A DNA stretch of 33,225 nucleotides from an uncultured Oscillospiraceae bacterium (GTDB lineage: Bacteria > Bacillota > Clostridia > Oscillospirales > Oscillospiraceae). Where the stretch lies: the NCBI GenBank assembly GCA_947630645.1, contig CANRIF010000016.1, positions 1-33,225 of the forward strand, written 5' to 3'. A model generated the notes under the pieces. It did no database searches. It had not been told where the DNA came from and saw only the letters and a list, made by a program, of their open reading frames with translations. Positions 1-11,584 of this stretch are shown one piece after another. The translations under genes were made by a program, and so were the position numbers. Each line of letters starts with the position of its first letter. Positions within the stretch are counted from its first letter, which is position 1.

Positions 1-821
1 CCGGTGGCGTGGCTGGGGTCCACCACCACGGGCAGGTGGCTCAACTCGTGCAGCACCGGCACGGCGGACAGGTCCAGGGTGTTGCGGGTATAAGTCTCAT
101 AGGTGCGGATGCCGCGCTCGCAGAGGATCACGTTCTCGTTGCCGCCGGCCATGATGTACTCGGCGCTCATGAGCAGCTCCTTCAGGGTGTTGGCCAGGCC
201 CCGCTTCAAGAGGATGGTCTTGTCGGTGCGGCCCAGGCCCTTTAAAAGTTCAAAGTTCTGCATATTCCGGGCGCCCACCTGGATCACGTCCACGTCCGCG
301 AACAGGTCCAGGTCCCGCATATCCATGATCTCCGACACGATGGGCAGGCCGGTGGCCTTTTTCGCCTCGCTCAAAAGCTCCAGGCCGGTGGCGTGCAGGC
401 CCTGGAAGTCGTAGGGGCTGGTCCGGGGCTTGAACGCGCCGCCCCGCAGCAGCTTCGCCCCGCTGGCCTTCACGGCCTCGGCGATGCCGATGATCTGGTC
501 GTGGGTCTCCACGGAGCAGGGGCCGGCGATGACGGCGAAGTGGCCGCCGCCGATGGCCACGCCGCCGGCGTTCACCACCGTGTCCTCCGGGTGGAATTTC
601 CGGTTGCACTTCTTGAACGGCTCACTCACCCGCTTGACGGACTGGACGATCTCCAGGCTCTCCAGAAGCTCCATGTCGATGTGGGCGGTGTCGCCCACCA
701 GGCCCAGGATGGTGTACTCGGCGCCCTCGGAGACGTGGACCTGGACGTGCTGTCCCTCCAGCCAGTGGATCAGGTGGTCCCGCTGCTCGTCGGTGGTATT
801 GGGTTTCAGAACGGTGATCAT
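1..821 (-). CDS. aroF: 3-deoxy-7-phosphoheptulonate synthase (DAHP synthase), 3' end outside window
   Basis: Condenses phosphoenolpyruvate and erythrose-4-phosphate, the first step of the shikimate pathway in the cytoplasm. Reading the minus strand from the ATG at 821-819 gives 273 complete codons with no stop before the window edge; about 65 C-terminal residues of the usual 335-340 are missing. The N-terminal 65 or so residues look like the small ferredoxin-like regulatory domain of the AroF/KDPS-like class. The barrel then shows [34 protein letters not shown] and DPSHATG, all hallmark active-site segments of this class. A good ribosome site (AAGGAGAG) lies just upstream. The gene is monocistronic at its 5' side, with its own consensus promoter and a Phe/Tyr leader-peptide attenuator (844-972). 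Family assignment is secure; the symbol follows common usage for this class. Confidence 0.95.
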
Positions 822-843
822 AGGGTGGCTCTCCTTTACATAC

Positions 844-876
844 AAAAAAGCTGTGCAGCTTTTTGTGCCGCACAGC
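844..876 (-). terminator. Attenuator terminator in the aroF leader
   Basis: On the minus strand GCTGTGCGGC (876-867) pairs with GCTGCACAGC (859-850) over 10 bp, with one G-U pair and a loop of ACAAAAA, followed directly by six T residues (849-844). This is a standard intrinsic terminator. It sits 23 bases before the aroF start codon, so it must be bypassed for aroF to be transcribed. Its 5' arm overlaps a segment (GCGGCAC, 873-867) that can instead pair with GTGCTGC upstream (909-903). Confidence 0.85.
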
Positions 877-896
877 GCGATCTATTTCGTCAGGTC

Positions 897-909
897 TTTT
901 CGGCAGCAC
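897..909 (-). promoter_or_regulatory. Antiterminator / anti-antiterminator switch segment of the aroF leader
   Basis: The minus-strand segment GTGCTGCCGAAAA has two competing partners. Its GCCGAAAA part pairs perfectly with TTTTCGGC inside the leader-peptide codons (959-952). Its GTGCTGC part pairs with GCGGCAC (873-867, one wobble), which is the 5' side of the terminator. This is the 1:2, 2:3, 3:4 layout of classical amino-acid attenuators. A ribosome stalled on the Phe/Tyr codons would mask segment 1, let 2:3 form and so prevent the terminator. Confidence 0.75.
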
Positions 910-918
910 ACAACGCTA

Positions 919-972
919 TTACTTCACGAAAAAGTAATAGGAATAATAGCGGCCGAAAAAGAAGCGATCCAT
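919..972 (-). CDS. Phe/Tyr-rich leader peptide of the aroF attenuator
   Basis: A 17-codon reading frame, MDRFFFGRYYSYYFFVK, starts at the ATG at 972-970 and stops at TAA (921-919), with a second stop TAG directly after. A purine-rich ribosome site (AGAGGGAGA) precedes it at suitable spacing, and it lies about 20 bases after the predicted transcription start. Nine of 17 residues are Phe or Tyr, the end products of the pathway whose first enzyme is encoded next. The Phe-Phe-Gly codons form RNA segment 1 (TTTTCGGC, 959-952), which is exactly complementary to segment 2 (GCCGAAAA, 904-897). The peptide is inferred to act by where the ribosome stalls, not as a product. Confidence 0.88.
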   Translation of the reverse strand: MDRFFFGRYYSYYFFVK

Positions 973-998
973 GACGTATCTCCCTCTGATTTTTCCAC

Positions 999-1027
999 AT
1001 TATATAGCGTCCTGGCCCGGTTGTCAA
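999..1027 (-). promoter_or_regulatory. Sigma-A promoter of the aroF leader
   Basis: On the minus strand TTGACA (1027-1022) is separated by 17 bases from TATAAT (1004-999), a perfect consensus. The predicted start near 992 gives a leader of about 170 nt that contains the leader peptide and the attenuator. Confidence 0.9.
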
Positions 1028-1065
1028 TCGTTTTAACGGACAAAAGCGCAAAAAAGGGCCGTGTC

Positions 1066-2199
1066 TCACGCGGACATGGGCCGGTGGCCGGACCCGTCCT
1101 CGGTGTGGGCGGGCAGGGCCAGGGGCGCCGGCCGGGGCGCCTGCCCCTGCCGCCGGCGGGCGGAGCGGTCCCGCAGGCGGATGTAGAGCCGCTCCGCCCG
1201 GCGGTAGAGCCGCCACGCCACCGGCCGGTACACCATGTCCGCCTCGCCCATGAGGTCCGTCAGCGCCGCGCCGAACTGCCGCTTGAAGCGGTACAGACCG
1301 CCGCGGGGGTCGTTGGCGTCGGTGATCTCCAGCACGCCCCGCAGATCGTACACCTCGCAGCCTCGGGCGATGGCCCGGCGGATCATCTCCCACTGGAGCA
1401 GATGGCAGGGCATGAGGTTGCGGTGTTCCCCGGCGCTGGCGCCGAAGGCGTACCAGGCCTTGCGCCCGTAAAAGATGGGGATGGCCCCGGCGATGGGCTT
1501 TCCGGCGTACCAGGCCAGCAGAAGCGTCGTATGCTCCTGGCCCATGGCGTCCCATATGCGCTGGAAGTAGGCCAGCGGCCGGACGAGAAAGCCGTCCCGC
1601 AGGCTCGTCTCCGTCATCAGCGCATGGAAGATCGCCAGGTCCTCCCGGGTCCCCTCCCGGATGACGACGCCCCGGCGCTGGGCCAGGCGGATGTTGTAGC
1701 GCAGCTTCTGGCGAAAACCCGCCATCACCTGCTCCTCGGTCTTTCCCCGCAGGTCCAGCCGGTATACCTGCCGGGGCTGGATCACGTCCCGGGCGGTGAC
1801 CGGGCCGGTGTGCAAACGGTAGCCCAGCCGCTCCATCGCCTCCCGGAAGGCCCGGTCCCCGGCCGGTACGTCCGGCTCCATCCGCAGGGCCACGGCGTTG
1901 TACCGCCAGGCCAACAGTTCCGCGCCCTCGGTCAGCTGCCGGAGGCTCTCCCCGTCGCCCGTGTCGCACACCGGCCCCCGGGGACAGTACATCAGGCTGC
2001 CGAATAGGGGCAGCTTCCGGATCAGCACGCTCATGCCGCCGGTGATGTTGCCCTGGGCGTCCTCCGCCAGGATGATCTCGTTTTTCCAGTTGGACTTGAC
2101 GGCGGCCCACTCCGCCGACTGCATAAAGCTGCACCGCCCATGGCGGGCAAGAAATTCCGTGTATTGGCGCTTCGACGCCTCGTCCGTCGCGTATCGCAT
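1066..2199 (-). CDS. FemAB-family aminoacyltransferase (lipid II:Gly/Ala ligase-like)
   Basis: A 377-residue protein of the FemA/FemB/FemX/MurM family, which transfers amino acids from charged tRNA to the lysine of lipid II or nascent peptidoglycan on the cytoplasmic face. Family-like features are the N-terminal SFMQSAEWAAVKS segment, the central RRGVVIREGTREDLAIF region, and GASAGEHRNLMPCHLLQWEMIRRA followed by YDLRGV in the second acyltransferase-like domain. The reading frame is open further upstream, but the ATG at 2199 is chosen because AAGGAGG precedes it by 8 bases and homologues start with such a short N-terminus. No long coiled-coil insert, typical of staphylococcal FemA/B, is apparent. 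Bridge chemistry cannot be told from sequence alone. Confidence 0.88.
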   Translation of the reverse strand: MRYATDEASKRQYTEFLARHGRCSFMQSAEWAAVKSNWKNEIILAEDAQGNITGGMSVLIRKLPLFGSLMYCPRGPVCDTGDGESLRQLTEGAELLAWRYNAVALRMEPDVPAGDRAFREAMERLGYRLHTGPVTARDVIQPRQVYRLDLRGKTEEQVMAGFRQKLRYNIRLAQRRGVVIREGTREDLAIFHALMTETSLRDGFLVRPLAYFQRIWDAMGQEHTTLLLAWYAGKPIAGAIPIFYGRKAWYAFGASAGEHRNLMPCHLLQWEMIRRAIARGCEVYDLRGVLEITDANDPRGGLYRFKRQFGAALTDLMGEADMVYRPVAWRLYRRAERLYIRLRDRSARRRQGQAPRPAPLALPAHTEDGSGHRPMSA

Positions 2200-2324
2200 G
2201 ACGCCGACCTCCTTGTGCGTTCTCTCGCGGCGGTCCTCTCCCGCCGCTGACGCCATGGTAGACCCGCCCGGCCGCAAAACGGCATCAAAAGCCTTAAGAT
2301 TTGTTTAATTTGTAACCGTTTTGC

Positions 2325-2360
2325 AAAAAAGCGCCCGCTCCCGGGAGGGGAGCGGGGCGG
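2325..2360 (-). terminator. Terminator of the TSUP permease gene
   Basis: On the minus strand a GC-rich stem (CGCCCCGCTCCC against GGGAGCGGGCG, one bulged C) is followed by TTTTTT. It lies just after the permease stop codon and before the FemAB gene. Confidence 0.8.
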
Positions 2361-2373
2361 TTGGAGGCGTGTG

Positions 2374-3132
2374 TCAGAGGAAGGTGTCGTATATCACCTT
2401 GACGAAAAAGATGGCCAGGACCAGGGCGATCAGGGGCTTGACGATCTTGGCGCCCCGGTCGGTGAAGCAGCGGGCGCCCAGATAGTTGCCCGCGATGCCG
2501 AAAAGGCCCGCCGCGAGGCCCAGGGACAGCCGGACCTGGCCGTTGACCAGATAGGTGACCAGGGCGGCGACGCTGGTGGACAGGTTGATGGCCTTGGTGG
2601 TGCCGGCGGCGTCGTGCAGGGAGAGGTGGGCCAGGCCCGTGAGCAGCAGGAGCAAAAAGGTGCCGGTGCCGGGGCCGTAAAAGCCGTCGTACACCCCGAA
2701 GACCAGGGCCAGGGCGCAGCAGACCGCCAGGGTCCGCCGGGGGGAGAGGGGCGGCTTGGCGGCGTCCAGGCTCTTGCTGCGGAACACATACACCGCCGTC
2801 AGCGGCAGGACGACGAGCAGGAGGATGCGGAACGCGCCGTCGTCCACCAGCAGGGCCAGGTTGGCGCCGGCGGCGGACCCGGCCAGGGCGAACGCCACGC
2901 AGGGCAGGCACAGCCGGGGCCGGATATAGCCCTCCTGCCAGAATTTGAAGGTGGCGACGCTGGTGCCCATGAAGGCGCTGATCTTGTTGGTGCCGATGCT
3001 CATGTGTACGGGCAGGCCGGCGATCAGGTAGGCGGGCAGGGTGATCAGCCCGCCGCCGCCGGCGATGGCGTCCACGAAACCGCCCAGAAAAATGAGCGGG
3101 CAGACGATAAGGTATTGTGTCCAGCTGGCCAT
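2374..3132 (-). CDS. TSUP-family (TauE/SafE) membrane permease
   Basis: A 252-residue, strongly hydrophobic protein with about eight predicted membrane segments. It carries the features of the sulfite exporter TauE/SafE family: an N-terminal FLGGFVDAIAGGGGLITLPAYL loop, SIGTNKISAFMGT, and the second-half repeat GVYDGFYGPGTGTFLLL with GTTKAINLSTSVAAL. Members move small organic or inorganic anions, often sulfur compounds; the substrate is not deducible here. The ATG at 3132 is preferred over more upstream in-frame starts because GAGGAG precedes it and the family begins at this hydrophobic segment. It is divergent from the carbonic anhydrase-like gene and shares a promoter region containing a perfect palindrome. 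Confidence 0.9.
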   Translation of the reverse strand: MASWTQYLIVCPLIFLGGFVDAIAGGGGLITLPAYLIAGLPVHMSIGTNKISAFMGTSVATFKFWQEGYIRPRLCLPCVAFALAGSAAGANLALLVDDGAFRILLLVVLPLTAVYVFRSKSLDAAKPPLSPRRTLAVCCALALVFGVYDGFYGPGTGTFLLLLLTGLAHLSLHDAAGTTKAINLSTSVAALVTYLVNGQVRLSLGLAAGLFGIAGNYLGARCFTDRGAKIVKPLIALVLAIFFVKVIYDTFL

Positions 3133-8873: not shown

Positions 8874-9101
8874 TTTTCCGAAAGCAAAATGCCTTGCCCT
8901 ACTCTTACTGACCATTTTACAAGTTTGTGTGCCGCCCGGCACTGGTTATAAAGTAACCAACTTATAAAACTTGAGCTTTTAACTCAATCAATAAGGCAGC
9001 TCTCGCTGCCAGCCGCTCATCGCGGCGATCGGCATTCGACCCGGCTGTCCGTGTGGCCTTGGCCGTCCCGGAGGGCGGCGGTCGCATCTTGCTTTGGAAA
9101 A
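8874..9101 (-). ncRNA. Large structured leader RNA domain upstream of potABCD, family not recognised
   Basis: In minus-strand RNA, segment 9101-9084 pairs with 8892-8874 over 18 bp (one G-U pair, one bulged C), closing a domain of about 230 nt. Inside it are a hairpin GGCAGC-GAGA-GCTGCC (9010-8995) with a GNRA-type loop, and an 11-bp helix (8969-8959 with 8925-8915, one G-U) that encloses two hairpins, GGTTA/TAACC (8958-8944) and GTGCC/GGCAC (8942-8929), making a three-way junction. The 5' arm of the long helix can also join an alternative hairpin with TTGGAAACGA at 9118-9109. I checked for T-box, lysine, cobalamin, SAM and guanidine signatures and saw none. The 10-mer GGGACGGCCA occurs twice, near each end (9069-9060 and 8859-8850). 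A riboswitch-like attenuator or a stand-alone RNA are both possible. Confidence 0.6.
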
Positions 9102-9238: not shown

Positions 9239-11584
9239 TTACTTTCCGGTCCGCTTCCGGCCGGCCAGCACCGCGGCGGCCAGGCCGCCGGCGCACAGCG
9301 CCAGCATCGCGGCCCACAGCGCCAGCGGCGTCCCGTCGCCGGTGGGGGCGGAGGTGGGCGCCGACGTGGGCGCGGCCGTGGGTACGGCCGTGGGCGCGGG
9401 GGTGGCCGTGGCGGGCGAGATGATGCGGAAGGTGACCTGCTTGTAGACGCCGACGTACTGATTGACGCCGGTGACGTAGAGGGTGGCCGTGCCCGGCTCC
9501 ACGTTGGCTGTGGCGGACAGGGTGTAGTCCGTCCCCTCCGTCAGCACCGTGTCGCCGGACCGGACCGTGACGGCCGGGAGCAGAGGCTGGCCGGTGTACA
9601 GCTGGTCCGGGATGGCGTCCACGTCCACCGTGGGCACGGTGTGGGGCGAGACTAGGGCGAACAGGGAGAACTGGTCGGAGGAGAAGAACACGCTGCCGTC
9701 CCGCACGGTGGTGGGCAGGGTGGTCAGCACGCCGTCATGCCACCGGGCGGCGTAGACCATGCTGCCGTCCACCCCCGCGGGCAGGGGCACCGCCAGCTCC
9801 ACAGGCTCCCCGGTCTGGGTGATGGAGCCGACCTGCGCGCCGTCCACGTTGACGGCGATGCCGATGTCGTAGTAGGCCAGCACGTCGTAGCCGCTGCCCA
9901 GCGCGCTCACCACAGACGGGGCGGAGGCAGGCTGGGATACGGCGTCCGCCCGCAGCGAGGCGGTGATGGTGACCACCTGGCCGGCGTTGGCCCGGTCGAT
10001 GGCGGCTTGAAGCGCCTCCACGGTGCCGGGGGACACGCCGGTGACCGTCTCGCCGGCGGAGACCTTCTGCACGATGTCGGACATGGTGTCCACCAGCTTG
10101 CCCACCTCGTCCCAGCCGGACACGTTGGAACTGGTGGCCCGGACCACAGGCGTTGGCTCCGGCGTGGGCGCCACGGTTGGTTCGGGGGTGGGTTCCGGCG
10201 AAACGGAGGGAGAGGGTTCCGGAGTGACCGTAGGTTCGGGCGTGGGTTCGGGTGTGGGTTCGGGCGTAGGCGCCGGAGTGGGTTCCGGAGTAGGCTCGGG
10301 CGTGGGTTCGGGCGTAGGTGCCGGAGTGGGTGCCGGCGTAGGCTCCGGCGTAGGCTCCGGTGTAGGCTCGGGCGTAGGCTCGGGCGTAGGCTCGGGCGTA
10401 GGCTCCGGAGTAGGCTCCGGTGTCGGTTCCGGAGTCGGCTCCGGAGTGGGTTCCGGAGTAGGTTCCGGTGTCGGCTCGGGTGTGGGTTCCGGCGTCGGCT
10501 CGGGTGTGGGTTCCGGCGTCGGCTCGGGTGTAGGCTCCGGTGTAGGCTCGGGCGTGGGTTCCGGTGTGGGTTCCGGCGTCGGCTCCGGTGTAGGCTCGGG
10601 CGTGGGCTCGGGTGTGGGTTCCGGAGTCGGCTCCGGGGTCGGTTCCGGCGTAGGTTCGGGTGTCGGCTCGGGCGTGGGCTCGGGCGTGGGTTCCGGAGTG
10701 GGCTCCGGTGTGGGTTCTGGCGTAGGCTCCGGGGTCGGCTCCGGTGTCGGCTCGGGCGTGGGTTCCGGTGTGGGCTCGGGAGTAGGCTCGGGCGTGGGTT
10801 CGGGTGTGGGTTCCGGTGTAGGTTCCGGTGTAGGTTCCGGTGTAGGTTCGGGTGTAGGTTCGGGTGTCGGCTCGGGCGTGGGTTCCGGTGTGGGCTCGGG
10901 AGTAGGCTCGGGCGTGGGTTCGGGCGTGGGTTCGGGTGTCGGCTCGGGCGTGGGTTCCGGGGTCGGTTCCGGAGTAGGCTCCGGCGTCGGTTCCGGGGTG
11001 GGGATGGGCTCCACATACTCGGAGACCTCCATGCCGAATTCCTGGACCCAGAAATAATAGCCCTGGTACTCGATGCAGGCGATGCCCACGGCGGTGTACT
11101 CCGGGTCCAGCATATTGCGGCGGTGGCCCTGCTGCTCATAGGGCAGGTCGTCCTCCCGCCAGGAGTTGAAGATGCTCTCGGCAGTGCCCAGGTCGCCGCC
11201 GCCCAGGGCGATGTTCTCCGCGTTGCTGGAGACGCCCTCGTATGTAACGTCGCTCCAGGGCGTACCGTCCGGCCGCTCGTGGTCGAACTTGGCCACGATC
11301 TCCGCGGCCCGCTCCATGGCGATCTGCTCCAGGGCGTAGTCGTAGGTCAGCGGCTGGCCCACCACGACAGACGGGACGCCCTCCAGCGTATTGATCTCGG
11401 CGCCGCTGGAACGGAAGCTGTTGAGCATATCCAGCATCCCCCGGGCGGCGTCCTGGTCGTATTCGCCGTTGAGCTTGGCGTCCTCCGCGGAGGGCGCGGT
11501 GGGGATGCCGTCGGCCAGGGACGGCACGCCCAGGCCGAACAGCACGGCCAGGGCCAAAAGCAGACTGAATACGCGCGTTTTCAT
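9239..11584 (-). CDS. Secreted CAP-domain (SCP-like) protein with a very long PTPE repeat
   Basis: A 781-residue surface or secreted protein of unknown role. Residues 1-24 are a signal peptide ([24 protein letters not shown]). A CAP/SCP domain occupies about 45-185, with HERPDG, SNAENIA and [17 protein letters not shown], the bacterial CAP pattern. Residues 193-480 are about 70 PTPE units, a stiff proline-rich spacer. A region of unknown type (485-640) follows, then a Big/MBG-like Ig fold (about 650-715: [40 protein letters not shown]), a second Thr/Ala/Pro linker, and a C-terminal GDGTPLALW, hydrophobic helix and RKRTGK tail. That tail resembles a sortase-type anchor, but no LPXTG is present. 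It is transcribed alone. Confidence 0.9.
10130..11003 (-). repeat. 12-base coding microrepeat encoding PTPE units
   Basis: Roughly 70 tandem 12-base units coding Pro-Glu-Pro-Thr with heavy third-position variation (CCG/CCC/CCT, GAG/GAA, ACG/ACC/ACA). The protein period is almost perfect while codons drift, apart from a few PTPA units near the C-terminal end. Repeat number is likely to vary between strains and to be error-prone in short-read assembly. Confidence 0.9.

Follow-up and report, generated by a model that had tools for sequence, protein, structure and literature searches.

Which signal governs the DAHP synthase gene (aroF) that lies at the start of a contig from an uncultured gut bacterium of the Oscillospiraceae? 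The stretch of DNA analysed here, called the window, spans 33,225 nucleotides, and an earlier interpretation of its letters (the sequence-only reading) had placed a Phe/Tyr leader-peptide attenuator on the minus strand upstream of this gene. That core statement is supported by the leader frames of relatives, by the co-adaptation of pairing segments, by codon choice and by folds in which a ribosome footprint is masked. The locus very probably carries a ribosome-mediated transcription attenuator that, as predicted from these folds, senses charged tRNA-Phe and tRNA-Tyr and controls an operon led by aroF, with tyrA and further shikimate genes behind it.

The attenuation mechanism is classical and already known. 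The most interesting feature of the find is the paired specificity of two attenuators, one before aroF (Phe and Tyr) and one before pheA (Phe only). Occurring in one genome, they make a natural pair for direct tests of the amino-acid specificity of attenuation and of how that specificity evolves by duplication. The find would also show that aromatic synthesis in the Clostridia, where T-boxes are usually expected, can be under a leader-peptide attenuator that is widely conserved.

The leader locus

The promoter, the ribosome site, the 17-residue frame with five Phe and four Tyr, the terminator with six T residues and the DAHP synthase gene were all located at 1027-819 on the minus strand, where the sequence-only reading had put them (Table 1). 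The promoter, of the sigma-70 type, is the sole promoter-like match within positions 1-3000 of the window, for which shuffled sequences give a mean of 0.4. The product of aroF is recognised by the models NF006421 (392 bits, cut-off 335) and TIGR01361 (313 bits).

Table 1. Features of the aroF leader locus in the window
Feature	Position	Strand	Basis
Promoter, TTGACA (1027-1022), 17-nt spacer, TATAAT (1004-999)	999..1027	minus	12/12 consensus
Shine-Dalgarno-like GAGGGAG, leader ATG 7 nt further on	980..986	minus	sequence
Leader peptide frame MDRFFFGRYYSYYFFVK with TAA, in-frame TAG next	919..972	minus	sequence
Segment 1, TTTTCGGC (959-952), codons Phe5-Phe6-Gly7	952..959	minus	sequence, fold, codon-choice test
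Apical hairpin, CTATTACTT (940-932) / AAGTAATAG (924-916), leader stop codon inside	916..940	minus	minimum-energy fold, genus alignment
Segment 2, GTGCTGC (909-903; partner segment 3), overlapping GCCGAAAA (904-897; partner segment 1)	897..909	minus	
Segment 3, GCGGCAC (871-865), within terminator 5' arm	865..871	minus	
Intrinsic terminator (3:4), stem 876-850, 10 pairs, then T849-844	844..876	minus	-17.7 kcal/mol
Ribosome site AAAGGAG of the DAHP synthase gene	831..837	minus	sequence
DAHP synthase gene aroF, PRK08673/TIGR01361 type, start 821, truncated by contig end	3..821	minus	

The three proposed pairings can likewise all be drawn in the window as described. Pairing 1:2 has eight pairs; pairing 2:3 has seven, one of which is G.U. 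In the minimum-energy fold, 1:2 is capped by an apical hairpin that was absent from the earlier description, is the most conserved part of the leader and contains both the TAA and the second in-frame stop, TAG. Two of the four Tyr codons sit in a strand of this hairpin. The fold of the leader RNA beats those of 200 out of 200 shuffled sequences (z -3.35), and the 1:2 region by itself reaches z -6.34.

Leader frames in relatives

Protein searches returned a DAHP synthase match in 117 of 149 genomes. Upstream DNA was taken from 90 loci of this search, those omitted being mostly lower-ranked or partial, and from a second set, the best 80 of 591 confirmed DAHP synthase loci in named genomes. Removal of three regions that were too short and of five duplicates from these 170 loci left 162 upstream regions. 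Because the closest or best-ranked relatives were kept in both sets, the sample is biased to near homologues.

A frame preceded by a ribosome site and holding at least five Phe/Tyr per ten residues occurs in 132 of the 162 regions (the best 80 of 591 included), compared with 9 of 810 dinucleotide-preserving shuffles and 1 of 162 reverse complements; 30 regions lack such a frame. The same-genus set comprises 35 genomes, our own included, three of which (G023, G032 and G033) yielded no upstream DNA. All 32 loci with upstream DNA have a Phe/Tyr-rich leader, that of L024 without a ribosome site as defined here. Retention of enriched frames by relatives, which the sequence-only reading had named as a check, is therefore found both within the genus and across the wider sample. 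The frames are not enriched in Trp (mean 0.18, against 0.23 in shuffled sequences).

When the ribosome-site condition is dropped, 141 aroF regions have a frame, with a terminator detected by the finder behind 129 and none behind 12. At least two Phe and at least two Tyr are present in 125 of these 129 leaders, the mean number of Phe being 4.9; three of the four exceptions are Phe-rich and one is Tyr-rich. Cultured strains with such a frame before aroF include Sporobacter termitidis DSM 10068, Angelakisella massiliensis, Aminicella lysinilytica and an Emergencia sp. isolate. In the 433 kb of our own genome that were scanned, 9 of 1681 small frames preceded by a ribosome site hold at least five Phe/Tyr per ten residues, and a terminator was found behind two of the nine, the aroF leader and the pheA leader described below.

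Records whose titles name other phyla also hold similar Phe/Tyr-rich frames before genes for closely related DAHP synthases: L101 and L118 (Treponema/Treponemataceae), L116 (Victivallales) and L163 (Lentisphaerae). These may represent either transfer or mis-binned contigs.

A sister attenuator before pheA

The second attenuator of our own genome lies on contig C14 (L184, minus strand from 7153, 7153-7028) and precedes pheA, the gene for chorismate mutase-prephenate dehydratase. Its leader, MVFSFTAHFSFFTFFARG, contains seven Phe and no Tyr and is followed by a terminator. The layout is that of the aroF attenuator and the terminator arms are nearly identical; the letters allow an antiterminator UUCUCGCUGC:GCGGUGAGAA, compared with GUGCUGC:GCGGCAC for aroF, so that both strands differ. 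Among 30 same-genus pheA loci, a leader frame is present in 19, cut within the frame by a contig end in one and absent in nine, and one locus has too little upstream DNA. The finder places a terminator behind 18 of these leaders, of which 14 have no Tyr and four have one, by eye in the hairpin strand. Leader composition thus tracks the output of the pathway, with Phe and Tyr on aroF and Phe, accompanied by at most one Tyr, on pheA.

Of the 32 same-genus aroF leaders, 26 went into model R1, and no pheA leader was used to build it. Searched against our own genome, it finds the aroF leader first (2.4e-25) and the pheA leader second (E=6e-8), and when search results are combined by reading, a match stands directly before pheA in 16 same-genus genomes, our own included. 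That a model of aroF leaders finds the pheA leader fits a common descent of the two, with convergence as the alternative.

Conservation and co-adaptation of the pairings

Co-adaptation was assessed with 88 dissimilar sequences out of the 147 that have terminators (129 aroF and 18 pheA) by comparing duplex energies between the stretch before the terminator and the terminator 5' arm plus loop, either of the same leader or of the others. The sum for own arms is -1210 kcal/mol, compared with -952 (sd 24.6) for permuted arms (z -10.5), and none of 2000 permutations reached it. The own arm is better than the mean of the other arms in 71 of 88 sequences and the best of all in 8, with a mean rank fraction of 0.26. 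The two arms of the terminator, used as a positive control, give z -33.9. The weak signal of a control stretch farther upstream (z -2.3) may mean that relatedness adds a little to the effect, or may alternatively come from segment 1.

Within the genus alignment (32 sequences), 2:3 is paired in 223 of 224 cells, with changes on one side and none on both sides, and 3:4, with seven pairs counted, in 221 of 224 cells, with some changes on both sides. The apical hairpin is paired in all 288 cells and is almost invariant. The covariation that the sequence-only reading had called for is accordingly found, and neither of its refuting conditions that sequence can decide applies: the terminator arm and segment 2 fit each other across the dissimilar set, and 3:4 varies on both sides. 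A limit is that 2:3 varies on one side only within the genus.

A further limit concerns 1:2. The exact eight-pair register proposed earlier is paired in 160 of 254 cells of the genus alignment and is not conserved; in relatives, by eye, segment 1 joins segment 2 in a shifted register. Since the register count is weak, synonymous recoding served as the test of this pairing. Random synonymous recoding of codons 2-9 moves the ribosome-free RNA towards 2:3 in 31 of 32 aroF and 13 of 18 pheA leaders. As recoding weakens 1:2, the codon choice in the leader serves this pairing, which is thus upheld although its precise register is not.

These results also bear on the thought that T-rich sequence ahead of a terminator produced the layout by accident or through its composition. 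A+T-rich stretches do favour TTT and TAT codons, but shuffles that keep the dinucleotides yield qualifying frames at 9 in 810 where natural regions yield 132 in 162, the segments are co-adapted and pheA shares the layout; chance is therefore scarcely credible as the origin of the locus.

Predicted effect of a stalled ribosome

Ribosomes were modelled by masking a footprint from 18 nt before to 12 nt after the first A-site base, dimensions chosen from general knowledge. The folded RNA reached through the terminator 5' arm and loop, and the expected number of 2:3 pairs was read out. For the window RNA it is 0.4 when the ribosome is absent or stands at the stop codon, 9.6-10.0 for every A-site position from Phe4 to Phe14, all four Tyr codons included, and 2.2 at Phe15. 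The means for the 32 same-genus aroF leaders are 3.4 without a ribosome, 3.7 at the stop, 9.8 at Phe and 11.3 at Tyr codons, and those for the 18 pheA leaders are 5.3, 4.7 and, at Phe codons, 12.7. Within the same portion of the leader frame, non-aromatic codons open the antiterminator too (9.6 in aroF). This is expected, because the effect of stalling depends on position and specificity lies in which codons stand there.

In the window RNA and on average, the model thus favours 1:2 over 2:3 when no ribosome is present or when it stands at the stop. The exceptions are L035 (one of 32 aroF leaders) and L199, L209, L211 and L219 (four of 18 pheA leaders), whose ribosome-free folds already contain 2:3 with at least ten pairs; as modelled, these five run against attenuation. 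The complete terminator (-17.7 kcal/mol) is stronger than 2:3 (-14.3 kcal/mol) and prevails when segments 2, 3 and 4 are folded together, so antitermination would have to depend on 2:3 forming first.

The following course of events is suggested, in which we infer the stalling, the footprint, the folding order and how the aroF leader responds to starvation. With ample Phe and Tyr, the leading ribosome would get to the tandem stop TAA-TAG, where segment 1 would be freed to join segment 2, and the terminator 3:4 would form. If Phe or Tyr is scarce, the ribosome would stall at some Phe or Tyr codon between Phe4 and about Phe14. Segment 1 would then be hidden under the ribosome, together with the 5' strand of the apical hairpin if the stall is at one of the later codons. 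With segment 1 hidden, segment 2 could join the nascent segment 3 at once, and RNA polymerase would continue into aroF.

Operon context and specificity

The gene tyrA directly follows aroF in 26 same-genus genomes, all with a full-length aroF match and both genes on the same contig. Contig C80 of our own genome starts with tyrA, followed by aroA, aroC and an aroE/aroK fusion; by analogy with genome G002, it probably joins the end of the window at which aroF is cut. The order in G101 is aroF, tyrA, aroB, aroA, aroC, pheA, aroE/K, aroQ, and in 13 genomes of the same family beyond the genus, pheA starts 4.4-4.7 kb behind aroF. Given these arrangements, the aroF leader, serving the common pathway, would read both Phe and Tyr, and the leader of a separate pheA gene only Phe.

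The sequence-only reading had further suggested that both amino acids are sensed. An attenuator that works but senses Phe alone, with Tyr codons that serve the hairpin or are passive, is an unlikely alternative. The AroR leader of Corynebacterium glutamicum, as reviewed in PMC11802643, provides a precedent, and the two Tyr codons within the near-invariant hairpin strand could be retained for pairing alone. In each of the 32 same-genus aroF leaders, however, one to four Tyr codons lie beyond the hairpin, whereas 14 of 18 pheA leaders lack Tyr and the other four have a single one. In the masked folds, moreover, a stall at a Tyr codon lets the antiterminator form, and the second gene of the operon is tyrA. 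Sensing of two amino acids agrees with this distribution of Tyr codons and with predicted folds that open at every one of them.

The converse, with Tyr as the main signal and Phe codons chiefly there to form segment 1 (TTTTCGGC:GCCGAAAA), is decidedly improbable. Three of the five window Phe codons lie beyond segment 1, which holds the other two, and the mean Phe content of the 129 aroF leaders with a terminator speaks against this alternative; the position of tyrA within the operon of the genus, with pheA elsewhere, would agree with it.

For the origin of the paired attenuators, the following scenario, in which the Clostridia possess an aromatic attenuator system of their own, has about an even chance of being correct. 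An ancestral attenuator reading Phe and Tyr stood before an aroF-tyrA-aroB-aroA-aroC-pheA operon and was copied when pheA left this operon in the genus of the window. The copy lost its Tyr codons and became a Phe-only sensor, and rare further copies, before the symporter gene of G051 and the phenylacetate-CoA ligase gene of G052 (see below), would have given rise to a small regulon replacing the T-boxes of relatives.

T-boxes and other structured RNAs

T-box leaders (RF00230) bind tRNA directly, with no need for translation. Such tRNA-dependent antitermination is found on the same gene family, since in two genomes of the same order, G102 and G092, a T-box stands immediately before a DAHP synthase gene, and our own genome has three T-box matches, one of them above the cut-off. 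A T-box at the leader site itself was rejected: RF00230 has no match there either at gathering or at E<=10. No other Rfam family reaches gathering at the site, and with the threshold relaxed to E<=10 only chance-level matches to three unrelated families are seen (E about 5-7). It is consequently very improbable that the site is a T-box, or an RNA of another kind that binds tRNA or a metabolite, in which the small frame is incidental. The enrichment of the frame, its codon choice and the co-adaptation also indicate translation.

Rfam scans of 39 further aroF loci, including all 30 that fail the frame definition, gave no match at gathering. The sole match among the 40 sources scanned is a 5S rRNA in the fortieth, L184, which is not an aroF locus. 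Within the DNA scanned, the 30 frame-less regions are therefore not explained by T-boxes.

Relation to known systems

The attenuators of Escherichia coli pheL-pheA and trpL-trpE work by a four-segment logic, in which leader codons for the end product decide between the pairings 1:2, 2:3 and 3:4. The window attenuator has this logic in common with them and differs in that two amino acids are predicted to be read and in the tandem stop at the tip of 1:2.

Comparable leaders have been described before DAHP synthase genes. In C. glutamicum, the aroR leader peptide, with a Phe-Tyr-Phe motif, precedes the aroF operon and acts by ribosome-mediated attenuation (Neshat 2014, as cited in the review PMC11802643). 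According to the same review, it reportedly responds to Phe limitation, with no effect of Tyr. Compared by the function described there, it shares with the window a Phe/Tyr leader peptide before a DAHP synthase operon, but it belongs to an actinobacterium and reportedly responds to Phe only, whereas the window leader, from the Clostridia, has five Phe and four Tyr codons and a Phe-only sister on pheA. The uORFC-13-1 motif (PMC8632094) is an upstream frame with a promoter, a ribosome site and a U-run coding for at least one Phe, situated before a terminator upstream of aroF; its 24 representatives come from Acholeplasma and environmental sequences only. The section of that paper on the motif gives neither a reading of Tyr nor an antiterminator, unlike the window.

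Other amino acids are represented as well. Leaders of the classical type with His codons are described in Bacillus and the Eubacteriales (PMC9413887, PMC2965389). Like the gene family of the window, the genes concerned carry T-boxes elsewhere, but they are the his operon or hisS/hisZ, compared with aroF under Phe/Tyr codons here. A Leu-rich leader is described in Staphylococcus aureus (PMC5794164).

The sequence-only reading had called such an attenuator notable in a Firmicute. This is only partly right, because His leaders in Firmicutes and aroF leaders in Corynebacterium and Acholeplasma have already been described in the sources cited. Among the matches listed in a search of full-text literature, judged by titles and the beginnings of abstracts, there is no aroF or pheA leader attenuator in Clostridia; most subscription journals lie outside the scope of that search, and a 2010 survey (Lopatovskaya and others) may hold one.

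Further leaders and side observations

Ten places with R1 matches beyond aroF and pheA were judged by eye, and three of them are plausible leaders; the other seven look chance-like. In G051 (L299, 507-647, plus strand), a Tyr-rich leader, MNVLNAKNLGCYYYSYRHTADVGAFGAAAEKA, and a terminator precede a sodium/solute symporter gene, and 29 other symporter loci showed no convincing copy of this leader. In G052 (L301, 632-777, minus strand), a Phe/Tyr leader, MAYRAFFFNSAFDYCFFNMGNGDLCCEKV, and a terminator stand before a phenylacetate-CoA ligase gene. Short frames with equal scores in 30 ligase loci (L311, L315) and 30 symporter loci (L342, L345, L351, L364) were judged unconvincing. The gene leuA (2-isopropylmalate synthase) of G041 is preceded by a leader rich in Leu, Ile, Val and Ala and a terminator (L297, 2062-2227, minus strand), possibly a branched-chain attenuator to judge by its composition.

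T-box matches were found directly before homologues of the G051 symporter gene on G105:C3 (below the Rfam cut-off), G104:C17, G101:C19 and G094:C116, and directly before phenylacetate-CoA ligase genes on G101:C51, G105:C1, G092:C38 and G100:C3. By these eight places, both kinds of gene are T-box-linked in several relatives.

Elsewhere in the window, positions 9029-9084 of the minus strand match Rfam RF02440 (SpF59/ldcC RNA) with 62.6 bits, within the long 5' region of a gene for an ABC transporter ATPase, which we take to be of the polyamine type from its appearance. A frame of 781 residues at 9239-11584, also on the minus strand, has a very long PTPE repeat after an N-terminal part that is presumably CAP-like.
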